Assembly (NCBI RefSeq): GCF_000011305.1
Contig: NC_004369.1
Span: forward strand, 2,294,001 to 2,358,000
Source: Corynebacterium efficiens YS-314
GTDB lineage: Bacteria > Actinomycetota > Actinomycetes > Mycobacteriales > Mycobacteriaceae
Reading direction: 5' to 3'
Length of the DNA: 64,000 nucleotides
Shown here: one piece after another, positions 30,434-47,275 of the stretch
Layout of the letters: every line of letters starts with the position of its first letter
Position numbering within the stretch: the stretch's first letter is position 1
Translations under genes and position numbers: made by a program
The notes under the pieces: model-generated
The model's input: only the letters and a program-made list of their open reading frames with translations
Databases searched by the model: none
Told to the model about the DNA's origin: nothing

Positions 30434-30511
30434 AACCAGTACCTTACTGGACTTGCTGATTATTAATGAGACTCCGGCGGGAGAACCCCGGCTAGGTGGT
30501 GGCAGGTGGGC

Positions 30512-30650
30512 GGGTTCGACTTTTTCGACACAGGCACAGGCCTCCGGGTGGGATGTGTCGAAAAAATCACGTGTACGCAGTCCCCGGGTTCGACTATTCC
30601 GACACAAGGGCGGTGTGGCCGCGGGGATGTGTCGAAAAAGTCGAAAAGAC
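30512..30650. repeat. Intergenic two-hairpin palindromic repeat, copy 1
   Basis: Four arms with the consensus GGGTTCGACTTTTTCGACACA alternate in orientation: forward at 30512, reverse at 30553, forward at 30586 and reverse at 30627. They make two imperfect hairpins of about 60 bases in tandem. The block fills the gap between hemW and hrcA. The same arm sequence and paired-hairpin layout recur at 47053-47187. The arrangement resembles REP/BIME elements of other bacteria, though the sequence is unrelated to any I know. Confidence 0.75.
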
Positions 30651-30773
30651 CTCCCCACCCCGAGAACACCGCCGGGAAAACCGACGCACCAGATCGCCGT
30701 CTGAGCGGTTGAACCGCGCTCAGCCATACCCGCGCCCATCCGGCGATCCCCAAGCCCTTAAATCCGCACCCAC

Positions 30774-31970
30774 TCAGGCGCCTGGAAGGTCATCGTCCTC
30801 GGCGAGGAGGATGTCGGCGATGATGCCGTCGGCAAGCAGGCGTCCGGCGTCGGTGACCGCGATGTTGCCGCCGACCCGGTGCAGCAGACCCCGGTCGATG
30901 TGGCGGTCGATGACCCGGTGCGCCGATGGGGAGAAGATCCCGGCGGGCAGCCCCTGTTTGAGACGCAGGCCCAGCATGACGCGTTCAGTGTGGTGGTCAT
31001 CGGCGGTGAGGAGTTCGGTATCCATGATCGGCAGCTCCCCGCCCGCGATCTGTGCGGAGTACCTGGCGGGGTGTTTGACGTTGTAGAAGCGGTGGTCGCC
31101 GATGTGCGAATGGGCACCGGGGCCGGCCCCCCACCAGTCACCGTCGACCCAGTACCCCATGTTGTGGCGGCACTCCCCGCCGGGTTTGGCCCAGTTGGAC
31201 ACCTCATACCAGTCGAAGCCGTTGGCACGCAGGCGCTGGTCGATCATCTCGTAACGGTCGGCGTAGACATCCTCGTCGGGGGCGGGCAATTCGCCGCGGC
31301 GGACCTTGCGGGCCATGGCGGTGCCGTCCTCCACGATGAGGGAGTAGGCGGAGACATGATCAACATCGGCCTCCAGGACGGCGTCGAGGGTTTTACGGAC
31401 ATCCTCGTCGGTTTCGGTGGGGGTGCCGTAGATCATGTCGAGGTTGACGTGGTCGAAACCGGCCGCGCGTGCCTCCTTCGCGGCGGCCACCGGCCTGCCC
31501 GGGGTGTGCCGGCGGTCCAGCACCCTAAGCACGCTTGACGACGCCGACTGCATCCCCAGCGAAATGCGGTTGTACCCGGACTCGCGCAGGGCATCGAAGA
31601 ACTCCGGCGAGGTGGACTCCGGGTTGGATTCGGTGGTGATCTCCGCCCCCGGCGCCAGGCCGAAGGTATTGCGGATGCCGGAGAGCACCCGGCTGAGCCC
31701 ATCCGCCCCGATCAGTGAAGGTGTGCCGCCGCCGATGAAGACGGTTTCCGCGGGACGTGGGCCCGGCTGGTCGGAATCGGCCTCATGGGCCGCGGCGAGG
31801 CGGGCGACAGCCATCTCCAATTCCACCTCGAGCGCATCGAGATAGGTATCGGGCCCGGCGGTGCTGCCCAGTTCACCCGCCGTGTAGGTGTTGAAGTCGC
31901 AGTACCCGCACCGGGTGGAACAGAATGGGACATGGACATAGACACCGAAGACGGAGCGAGGAACTGACAT
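30774..31970 (-). CDS. hemW: Radical SAM heme chaperone HemW
   Basis: The protein has 398 residues from the ATG at 31970. The radical-SAM cluster motif is HVPFCSTRCGYCDFNTY near residue 13, followed by FIGGGTPSL. It carries the heme-binding motif HNMGYW near residue 265, which separates HemW heme chaperones from true oxygen-independent coproporphyrinogen oxidases (HemN). The C-terminal HemN-like domain ends with DAGRLLADGIIADILL. It is often annotated hemN. It has a GCTTGACGACGC word inside. Confidence 0.9.
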   Translation of the reverse strand: MSVPRSVFGVYVHVPFCSTRCGYCDFNTYTAGELGSTAGPDTYLDALEVELEMAVARLAAAHEADSDQPGPRPAETVFIGGGTPSLIGADGLSRVLSGIRNTFGLAPGAEITTESNPESTSPEFFDALRESGYNRISLGMQSASSSVLRVLDRRHTPGRPVAAAKEARAAGFDHVNLDMIYGTPTETDEDVRKTLDAVLEADVDHVSAYSLIVEDGTAMARKVRRGELPAPDEDVYADRYEMIDQRLRANGFDWYEVSNWAKPGGECRHNMGYWVDGDWWGAGPGAHSHIGDHRFYNVKHPARYSAQIAGGELPIMDTELLTADDHHTERVMLGLRLKQGLPAGIFSPSAHRVIDRHIDRGLLHRVGGNIAVTDAGRLLADGIIADILLAEDDDLPGA

Positions 31971-32069
31971 AGCACCCAACAGTAGTGGGTGGGTCTTTTT
32001 CGACAGAATCTACAGGCGGAACCAAGGTGGACTATACGGAATTGCCAAGAAAGTAGTAGAGTGCAGAGC

Positions 32070-36262: not shown

Positions 36263-38389
36263 GTGACTGCACGAGGACCTTTACAAGACCTGGCCGGCCT
36301 GTACGGCATCTCCACCTCATACACGGATTACAAGGGCGCCGACATTGAGGTCAGTGATGACACGCTGATCAAGGTTCTCCGCGCCCTTGATGTGGATCTG
36401 GGTGAGGGTGAGCCGTCGGATGGGACCATCAACGCCGCCATTGAACGTTTCCACGACAGGGAGTTCTCCCGTCCCCTGCCACCGTGTGTGGTGGCGGTGC
36501 AGGGTGATGAGGTGGTCTTCCCCGTCCATGTGCACGATGGCGCGCCCGCCGAGGTGCATATTGAGTTCGAATCGGGCGAGCGTCGAGAAGCACACCAGGT
36601 GGAGAACTGGACGCCGCCGCGCGAGGTGGACGGCACCACCTGGGGTGAGGCGAGCTTCAAGCTGCCCGCCGACCTGCCGCTCGGCTGGCACCAGCTGCGC
36701 CTGACCTCCGGGGAGATGACCGTGACCTGCGGATTGACCATCACCCCGGAACGTCTGTCCACCGCGGACAAGTATCTGGAATCCCCCCGCACCGGTGTCA
36801 TGGCGCAGATCTACTCCGTGCGTTCCAATCTGTCGTGGAGCATGGGTGATTTCAACGACCTGGGTCACCTCGCCAGTGTGCTGGCCGTCGACGGTGCCGA
36901 TTTCCTCCTCATCAACCCCCTGCATGCCGCGGAGCCACTGCCGCCCACCGAGGATTCGCCGTACCTGCCCACCACCCGGCGGTTCATCAACCCGATCTAC
37001 CTCCGCGTGGAGGATGTGCCGGAGTTCAACCAGCTCCCGGTGGAGCTGCGCGACGATGTCGCCGAGCTTGCCGACGAGTTCCGCGAGGAGAACTTCACCC
37101 CCGACATCATCGAACGCAACCCCGTCTTCGAGGCCAAGCTGCAGGTGCTGCACGAGATCTTCCGCGTCGAGCGCTCCCCCGGGCGCGAGCAGGCCTTCCG
37201 CGATTTCGTGGAGCAGGAGGGTCAGGGCCTGGTTGATTTCGCGTCCTGGTGCGCCGAGCGGGAGATCACCCAGCTGGCCTCCGCGCACCACGCCGAACCG
37301 GACCGCGATGAGCTGACCACCTTCTACATGTGGCTGCAGTGGCTGTGCGATGAGCAGCTGGCCGCCGCCCAGAAGCGCGCGGTGGACTCAGGCATGTCGA
37401 TCGGCATCATGGCCGACCTCGCCGTCGGTGTGCACCCCGGTGGTGCCGATTCCCAGAACCTGGCGCATGTGCTCGCGCCGGACATCTCGGTGGGCGCACC
37501 GCCGGACGGTTACAACCAGCAGGGCCAGGACTGGTCCCAGCCACCATGGAATCCGACCAGGCTCGCCGAGGAGGGGTACATCCCGTGGCGTAATCTGCTG
37601 CGCACCGTCCTGCGCCACTCCGGTGGCATCCGCGTGGACCACGTCCTGGGTCTGTTCCGTCTGTTTGTCATGCCCCGCATGGAATCACCCGCCACCGGCA
37701 CCTACCTCAACTTCGACCACGACGCGCTGGTGGGCATCCTGGCCCTGGAGGCCGAGCTTGCCGACGCCGTCGTCATCGGCGAGGACCTGGGCACCTTCGA
37801 GCCCTGGGTCCAGGACGTGCTGGCCAGCCGTGGCATCATGGGCACCTCCATCCTGTGGTTCGAGCATTCCCCGACACACGAGGGTCCCCGTCGCCAGGAG
37901 GAGTACCGTCCGCTGGCGCTGACCTCGGTGACCACCCATGATCTGCCGCCCACCGCGGGTTACCTCGCCGGCGAACACATCGACCTGCGCGACCGCCTCG
38001 GTGTGCTCACCCGCGACCCGGCCATCGAGCACGAGGAGGACCTGCAGTGGCAGGCTGAGATCCTCGATGTGGTCGCCGCCGCCGGTGCCCTGCCCATGCC
38101 CGAGGGTGGCACCTACGTGGGCCTCGAACGGTCCGAGCGTGGTGAGCTCGCGGACCTGCTGGCCGGTTTGGAACGCTTCGTGGCCGGCACCCCCTCCGCC
38201 CTGACGTGCGTGTCCCTGGTGGACATGGTCGGTGACAAGCGCGCCCAGAACCAGCCCGGCACCACCCGCGACATGTACCCCAACTGGTGCATCCCGCTGT
38301 GCGACAACGACGGCACCCCGGTCACCATCGAGGCGCTGCGCGAGCATCCGCTCTACCGCGTCGTCTCGGATGCGGCCAGGCGCGACTAG
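36263..38389 (+). CDS. malQ: 4-alpha-glucanotransferase (amylomaltase)
   Basis: The GH77 enzyme has 708 residues and starts at a GTG. It transfers maltooligosaccharide segments between glucans and releases glucose, and acts in maltose and glycogen metabolism in the cytoplasm. An N-terminal extension of about 160 residues (beta-rich) precedes the barrel, as in other actinobacterial MalQ proteins. Catalytic motifs are GGIRVDHVLGLFRLFVMP (nucleophile Asp), VVIGEDLGTFEPWVQ (Glu) and SVTTHDLPPTAGY. A terminator-like hairpin with a GCTTATCGACGC word follows the stop codon. Confidence 0.96.
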   Translation: MTARGPLQDLAGLYGISTSYTDYKGADIEVSDDTLIKVLRALDVDLGEGEPSDGTINAAIERFHDREFSRPLPPCVVAVQGDEVVFPVHVHDGAPAEVHIEFESGERREAHQVENWTPPREVDGTTWGEASFKLPADLPLGWHQLRLTSGEMTVTCGLTITPERLSTADKYLESPRTGVMAQIYSVRSNLSWSMGDFNDLGHLASVLAVDGADFLLINPLHAAEPLPPTEDSPYLPTTRRFINPIYLRVEDVPEFNQLPVELRDDVAELADEFREENFTPDIIERNPVFEAKLQVLHEIFRVERSPGREQAFRDFVEQEGQGLVDFASWCAEREITQLASAHHAEPDRDELTTFYMWLQWLCDEQLAAAQKRAVDSGMSIGIMADLAVGVHPGGADSQNLAHVLAPDISVGAPPDGYNQQGQDWSQPPWNPTRLAEEGYIPWRNLLRTVLRHSGGIRVDHVLGLFRLFVMPRMESPATGTYLNFDHDALVGILALEAELADAVVIGEDLGTFEPWVQDVLASRGIMGTSILWFEHSPTHEGPRRQEEYRPLALTSVTTHDLPPTAGYLAGEHIDLRDRLGVLTRDPAIEHEEDLQWQAEILDVVAAAGALPMPEGGTYVGLERSERGELADLLAGLERFVAGTPSALTCVSLVDMVGDKRAQNQPGTTRDMYPNWCIPLCDNDGTPVTIEALREHPLYRVVSDAARRD

Positions 38390-46879: not shown

Positions 46880-47052
46880 AGGGCTTGATCCTAGCTGCGT
46901 TGGGGCGAAGAGAGACGATGTGGGCGCACAAGGCGATCAGAGGCGTTGGATATGCCCGGATGACCTCCACCCTTCCCGGGAGTGTTTCAGGGGCTTGAGC
47001 GGGATTCTGGGAGGGCACTTTTTTAGGGGCGATTGGGCGGCTCCTGGCGCGG

Positions 47053-47187
47053 GGTTGGCATTTTCCGACACACACCACGGTGGAGAAGCCACTGTGTCGA
47101 AAAAGTCGAACCCGGGTGCCGGGGAACCGCGAAAAACTCGACACAGCCACCCCGAAACACCCGTGCTGTGTCGAAAAAATCGAACCC
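47053..47187. repeat. Intergenic two-hairpin palindromic repeat, copy 2
   Basis: Four arms alternate in direction: a degenerate forward arm at 47053, a reverse arm CTGTGTCGAAAAAGTCGAAC at 47092, a forward arm GAAAAACTCGACACAG at 47131 and a reverse arm CTGTGTCGAAAAAATCGAAC at 47165. They form two tandem hairpins, as at 30512-30650, and lie between the divergent peptidase and esterase genes. The arm sequence is shared with copy 1 to near identity, but the loops differ. Confidence 0.75.
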
Positions 47188-47275
47188 CACCCCACAGCCG
47201 CCCCGCATAAGGCGATCAGAGGCGACCAGACCGGCACCCCGCCCACCCGCGCGGCCAGTTGCTAGGGTTGGACCC

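Follow-up and report, generated by a model that had tools for sequence, protein, structure and literature searches.

The window analysed here, a 64,000-nucleotide stretch of the Corynebacterium efficiens YS-314 genome (C3:2294001-2358000 of 3,219,505 bp), contains two copies of an intergenic element built from four arms. Element 1 occupies the gap between hemW and hrcA (30515..30645) and element 2 the divergent gap between an M3-type peptidase gene and an esterase gene (47055..47184), and neither is assigned a strand. In both, 18-nt arms of consensus TTCGAYTTTTTCGACACA follow one another in the order + - + -, forming a unit of about 131 bp with 21-nt loops and a 74-bp period. The arms of element 1 lie at 30515-30532 (+), 30554-30571 (-), 30589-30606 (+) and 30628-30645 (-), with loops at 30533-30553 and 30607-30627 and a linker at 30572-30588 (131 bp in all: arm 18, loop 21, arm 18, linker 17, arm 18, loop 21, arm 18). 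Those of element 2 lie at 47055-47072 (+), 47093-47110 (-), 47128-47145 (+) and 47167-47184 (-); its loops measure 20 and 21 nt, and the shorter one brings the element to 130 bp. Like arms recur at 74 or 73 bp, 74 bp being about seven helical turns, and facing cores are spaced 28 bp start to start. A 21-nt consensus with up to 3 mismatches matches five places in the window and none in 100 shuffles. The two-hairpin repeats that the initial annotation had placed at 30512-30650 and 47053-47187 are both real, each with four arms in the same layout. Mechanically called ORFs pass through both elements; with the gene starts that relatives share, neither element falls within hemW, hrcA, peptidase or esterase.

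Module B and further copies

Several elements are accompanied by a second conserved stretch, module B (core CAGATCGCCGTTTAAGCG ... CGCCTTAAAACGCC), about 25-60 bp to one side of the arms, so that the whole composite measures about 250-300 bp. In element 1, module B (CAGATCGCCGTCTGAGCG ... CCTTAAATCCGC) lies on the plus strand at 30667..30787, with its core pattern at 30690-30707 and a profile match that overlaps the hemW 3′ end by about 10 nt; in element 2 it lies on the minus strand on the peptidase side (46917..47046; match 47046-46917). Both are nhmmer matches to a profile whose training set includes them and whose sources are C. efficiens, C. gallinarum and two further relatives, G045 and G205. 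The first module-B motif occurs five times in the genome at up to 2 mismatches, every time adjoining an element. Composite element 2 is flanked by a 16-bp direct repeat seen in the sequence, AAGGCGATCAGAGGCG, with both copies on the plus strand (left 46930..46945, right 47209..47224). At this site C. gallinarum has three tandem units with a period of 279 bp, and the direct repeat fits a remnant of such tandem units.

A genome-wide search for the arm had been proposed as a check, and further copies do exist. The arm pattern TTCGACTTTTTCGACACA gives 26 matches at up to 3 mismatches versus 0 for the reversed pattern, three of the 26 (L022, L023, L025) being single arms without the four-arm layout. 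The core pattern CGACACA-N{18,24}-TGTGTCG occurs at 17 places, with 21 nt between cores in 16 and 20 nt in one. With 150 of 1205 candidates scored, covariance model R1, built from 19 elements (11 from C. efficiens, 7 from C. gallinarum and 1 from G205), recovers 11 full copies plus a half copy and a variant. The full copies lie on C3 at 219654, 354991, 363144, 363434, 433561, 1111849, 1693247, 2324515, 2341055, 2444108 and 2939801, the half copy at 432078 and the variant at 2223704. The R1 E-values of the window copies (2.1e-26 for element 1, 7.1e-25 for element 2) add no new proof because those copies trained the model; the arm-pattern and core-pattern matches are independent of it. A second variant (L225), just before position 2146 of a sampled stretch, was missed by both R1 and the four-arm scan described below, so degenerate copies are undercounted. 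The half-arm that the initial annotation had read near 31997 is not supported: 4 of its 18 positions depart from the arm, we estimate about 0.5 chance occurrences of such a match per 64 kb, and the site reads differently in C. gallinarum and G045.

Searches beyond the species return few convincing members. Among 242 genomes of the genus, 12 pass E 0.01, and convincing matches come from C. efficiens itself (G000), C. gallinarum (G056), G045 (one copy, E 1.3e-9) and G205 (one copy, E 3.4e-16); the other eight (E 4e-4 to 0.009) lack the four-arm layout by eye. Because 14 candidates per genome were scored under strict filters, degenerate genus members may be missed. At order level 3 of 397 genomes match, our own and two with weak truncated matches that by eye do not resemble members. 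Genome contigs of 84,980 species, possibly not including our own genome, yield 19 pattern stretches, 7 of them in C. gallinarum and 12 scattered over other groups, including 4 in one Prolixibacteraceae genome. A pattern match in G119 was dropped for its 23-nt loop and coding-like sequence. The Prolixibacteraceae contigs (UBA6029; L135, L137, L139, L144) match TTCGACACA-N20-22-TGTGTCGAA and possibly represent an unrelated repeat family. Viral contigs give three pattern matches, and a query of window 30450-30780 against plasmid and phage records gives none.

Conserved cores and the history of insertion

The loops had been called unrelated between copies that share the same arms, and a wider comparison agrees. 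Across 10 C. efficiens elements (tandem copy L008b left out), identity between paralogues is 0.334 in loop 1 versus 0.331 in shuffled sequence (z 0.2) and barely above shuffles in loop 2 (0.351 versus 0.324, z 2.0) and the linker (z 2.6); it reaches 0.50-0.63 in outer arms and 0.89-0.97 in the nearly invariant cores (z 18-21). At six sites orthologous between C. efficiens and C. gallinarum, cores are identical at 165/168 positions and loops at 216/247 (Fisher p 3.5e-5), next to 241/264 in outer arms, 85/102 in linkers and 1475/1612 in partly coding flanks. One of these sites, L013, has no substitution at all; in another, L006, the alignment spans a tandem copy, with large gaps as a result and no added core substitution. 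As judged from these alignments, loops drift no more slowly than the flanks, and cores are kept. A CRISPR array was considered and rejected: the arms alternate in orientation, and orthologous loops change by substitution.

Relatives provide both filled and empty sites. Identity of hemW to the C. efficiens gene is 96% in C. gallinarum, 90% in G045, 88% in G205 and 85-86% in G064, G034, G214, G038 and G023, which we label the C. glutamicum group on the basis of this identity; G064 we take to be C. glutamicum ATCC 13032. The distance between the hemW match end and the hrcA motif is 364 nt in C. efficiens and 674 nt in C. gallinarum, which has two tandem copies, versus 82 nt in G045, 70 nt in G205 and 42-54 nt in the C. 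glutamicum group. The peptidase-esterase gap likewise lacks the element in G045, G064 and G034. Since relatives are without the element at these two places, it was inserted. Absence from the orthologous C. glutamicum gaps, suggested earlier as a point to examine, is found in 5 of 5 group genomes at hemW-hrcA and in 2 of 2 at peptidase-esterase.

Most copies nevertheless appear old. C. gallinarum holds 16 full elements, and 10 of the 11 full C. efficiens copies have a same-place counterpart there (judged by eye for 363144, 363434, 433561 and 1693247), the exception being 219654, where no C. gallinarum element is found at the corresponding place; where C. efficiens has the half copy 432078, C. 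gallinarum has a full element. The simplest reading of these sequences is insertion before the two species split, followed by inheritance, and recent mobility is not supported. At three sites (hemW-hrcA, the esterase and 2939801) the two species do not have the same number of tandem copies; the unit periods are 217-300 bp. At the site of the G205 element, no such element is seen by eye within 420 nt after the stop codon in C. efficiens, C. gallinarum or G045.

Dispersed copies and empty orthologous gaps are what non-autonomous mobile DNA of REPIN or MITE type would leave, with the arms serving as recognition ends for a trans-acting transposase that has since been lost or escapes recognition, and with present copies being old insertions. 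REPINs likewise consist of inverted 16-mers at a conserved distance around a less conserved spacer, according to the available text of PMC3116915. However, the transposase domain Y1_Tnp (PF01797), the one transposase family searched, is not found in eight of nine close genomes (G000, G056, G045, G064, G034, G214, G038 and G023), so the earlier proposal of mobilisation by a REP-associated tyrosine transposase finds no such gene in the genome itself. The single match, in G205 (L169, G205:C53:1229-1582), contains one internal stop; G205 also holds one four-arm element. Target duplication is not clear by eye at any compared site, and the C. gallinarum counterparts weigh against movement as well. 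Because paralogous loops are saturated while cores stay fixed, the arms were maintained after dispersal. Mobile DNA, although the best placed of the alternatives, is in our judgement an unlikely explanation.

Arm classes in relatives and tests of pairing

The locus that corresponds by orthology to the G205 site carries, in G034, module B with four arms of different sequence before it and, in G064, four arms reading ACCAAGG/CCTTGGT. We scanned sampled stretches for four alternating 7-mers (up to 2 mismatches in total, loops 14-26, period 60-90) and counted as in range those matches with a period of 70-76 and equal loops. G064 gives 26 matches in 774 kb, 18 of them in range and 14 of these 18 at exactly 72, against 7 matches and none in range from three shuffle sets; G034 gives 11 in 400 kb with 5 in range, against 7 and 0 from three shuffle sets. 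None is in range among 14 matches in 400 kb of C. efficiens, a sample without the 11 known copies (shuffles 9 and 0), or among 6 in 320 kb of G045 (shuffles 3 and 0). With narrower limits, a scan of the window returns both known elements and one weak extra match. A weak four-arm match is seen at window 37924-38023 (CTCGGTG, 2 mismatches, period 73). Elements L162 and L163 come from a smaller scan, whose L194 and L193 are L253 and L274 of the main one. In L194:1229 / L253:1399 the linker between two ACCAAGG hairpins itself looks stem-like (CTCAATCGCACA ... TGTGCATTTGAG).

The 23 in-range elements of G064 and G034 share the same geometry (period 71-74) and have different arm sequences, which agree within an element and differ between classes. 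In 11 elements of class A (arm consensus ACCAAACCACAGTGCCCA) the cores lie at offsets 0, 29, 72 and 101, and their 28 bases show 0-5 mismatches. Arms cannot be aligned from one class to another, and the classes are linked by geometry and module B. In the sampled G064 and G034 DNA the module-B profile has 12 matches at E<0.01, 7 of them within 60 bp of a four-arm element; these lie 24-52 bp from class A, D or F elements, where about 0.2% of positions would qualify. The other five lack a strict four-arm element within 60 bp: degenerate arms are visible by eye near L213 and L203, and no arms are found within 60 bp of L273, L212 and L249. C. efficiens itself contains variant forms. Variant L225, next to module B at about 1985-2212 of its stretch (G000:C3 about 1501985-1502212), has arms CATCCACA / TGAGGGCGG / CCGCCCTCA / TGTGGTGG, the inner two complementary over 14 nt. 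Both L225 and L176 combine C. efficiens-type outer arms with altered cores, some near class A (CGCCCACA in L176), and the C. gallinarum orthologue of L176 retains CGACACA-type cores. Shared geometry, module B and variant cores therefore suggest a single old composite in which the arms are replaced jointly.

Pairing between arms, described at the outset as hairpins, does not emerge as a conserved feature. In a covariation test of 19 elements, standard pairs make up 74.6% versus 76.2% in shuffles, and 483 of 500 shuffles equal or exceed the observed value; the covariation score is 0.089 versus 0.099. Sliding the partners by 1-3 columns lowers pairing from 74.6% to 24-47%, a drop expected because the arms are inverted copies of one motif. 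For 11 class-A elements, framed by the best of nine shifts, none of eight comparisons gives a significant excess of complementarity within over between elements. Across 34 elements of all classes (without L274, L176, L225 and tandem copy L008b, and with class assignment and framing of the 24 C. glutamicum-group elements by hand), arm similarity is 24.9 of 36 for side-by-side, 25.4 for nested and 25.6 for same-strand arms, and neither side-by-side nor nested pairing is favoured (Wilcoxon p 0.76); nesting is favoured in single cases, C. glutamicum L211:16550 and the C. efficiens variants L176 and L225. Selection for pairing would predict compensated changes in the arms, and these are not seen; on the alignments one sequence motif simply recurs in all four arms, with no hairpin backed by covariation. 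Loops differ, with a mean MFE of -16.1 versus -14.3 in shuffles (0 of 200 shuffle means as low; 45 unique loops), and in 11 hand-picked orthologous loop pairs 98 of 121 base pairs are kept versus 92.8 expected (p 0.06). Compensatory stem changes, the mark of a structured RNA, are thus absent from the aligned sequences, and the loops speak weakly in favour of structure.

An RNA element at transcript ends, whose hairpins would stabilise or terminate mRNA by REP-like protection from 3′ exonucleases or by bidirectional termination, would account for the self-complementary loops. C. glutamicum elements also favour convergent gaps (10 of 18 versus 51 of 234 gaps, p 0.002, on crude longest-ORF gene calls that place 6 of the 18 inside a called ORF), a preference that could point to a transcript-end role, and A-rich and T-rich outer arms border the class A stem. 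The matching tally for C. efficiens, based on 3-kb loci and with neighbours misplaced (L003), is left out of this comparison. The arms' lack of covariation argues against this explanation, as does the position of window element 2 between divergent genes. An intrinsic terminator was rejected, since the C. efficiens consensus has its T-runs ahead of the stem and its A-runs behind it, opposite to the order in a terminator, although T-runs are present in some inner arms. Rfam matches no element, finding only two tRNAs in the window and nothing in seven C. glutamicum stretches. We regard an RNA element as improbable. Binding sites of a classical transcription regulator would explain arms conserved at fixed spacing, but the neighbours have no evident common function (hemW/hrcA, peptidase/esterase, purU, tRNA and cobalamin genes) and by eye some sites lie between gene ends (L013, L015), making a regulon very improbable.

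A putative protein-binding composite and known repeat families

The explanation we favour, with somewhat more than even confidence, is an old, dispersed intergenic family of BIME/REPIN-like type whose four motif copies would be bound by a putative factor, with whole-arm turnover among subfamilies. Protein binding best explains the arms because a motif present four times is kept at fixed helical spacing while the intervening DNA drifts, and the element would be a docking site for a putative DNA-binding partner because relatives keep the layout and module B and swap the arm sequences. A sequence-specific factor may occupy the four arms as two head-to-head pairs and build a nucleoprotein complex in which the loops would mainly keep distance. 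Module B belongs to the same composite as the arms, whose sequences presumably turn over with the factor. Such a complex might serve the host, in chromosome structure or in insulation of gene ends, or might have helped the element itself to disperse. The self-complementarity of the loops and their kept pairs are not what DNA binding alone would lead one to expect.

More tentatively, a single composite family could span the C. glutamicum/C. efficiens clade, keeping geometry (period 71-75 bp) and module while all four arms are replaced together, each subfamily with its own co-evolving DNA-binding partner. Arm cores across subfamilies read CGACACA, GTGCCCA, CGTGCCA, TCCACCA, AGACCAA, TGACCAA and ACCAAGG. 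If true, this would amount to an as yet undescribed system of nucleoprotein sites spread over the genome. At the sampled density of 18 in 774 kb, roughly 75 such elements are expected in the industrial model organism C. glutamicum. The combination of rigid geometry and swapped arms offers a natural experiment on the co-evolution of a repeat family and the protein that recognises it, and the four-arm element provides a bait for finding its putative recognising protein.

The family bears out the initial comparison with REP and BIME repeats in being dispersed and intergenic with alternating arms. BIMEs of Escherichia coli, like four-arm elements, carry repeat copies of alternating orientation in intergenic space, and they bind gyrase, IHF or Pol I; to our knowledge their sequence is unrelated to that of the four-arm element. 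MITEs share insertion relative to empty sites in relatives but differ in having near-identical copies, bounded by terminal inverted repeats, and target-site duplications, the paralogous loops here being unrelated. In our coverage of the literature on Corynebacterium intergenic and palindromic repeats and on REP, BIME and REPIN elements, which included few subscription papers, the family is not described; the main texts of two stem-loop surveys name C. diphtheriae as the sole Corynebacterium (PMC2267715, PMC1590033).

The GTAG- and CGTC-tagged REP superfamilies are dispersed, mostly intergenic palindromic repeats that form dimers, with stems of 5-13 bp and loops of 2-20 bp for GTAG and stems of 8-9 bp and loops of 4-5 bp for CGTC, according to the main text of PMC3733652, where the word Corynebacterium does not appear. 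Compared with that description, four-arm elements have loops of about 21 nt, no end tag and four arms at a period of 72-74 bp; by eye the arm TTCGACTTTTTCGACACA contains only a 4-bp self-complement and neither a GTAG nor a CGTC tag. REPINs of Pseudomonas and other bacteria, REP doublets that form hairpins, are extragenic and occur in several flavours per genome (available text of PMC3116915). Four-arm units differ from them in being doubled, in having arms that are not tagged palindromes, in often being accompanied by module B, and in that the C. efficiens genome and 7 of 8 relatives searched lack a REP-associated tyrosine transposase. With REPINs as that text describes them, they share inverted motifs at a constant distance, a variable spacer and an extragenic position.
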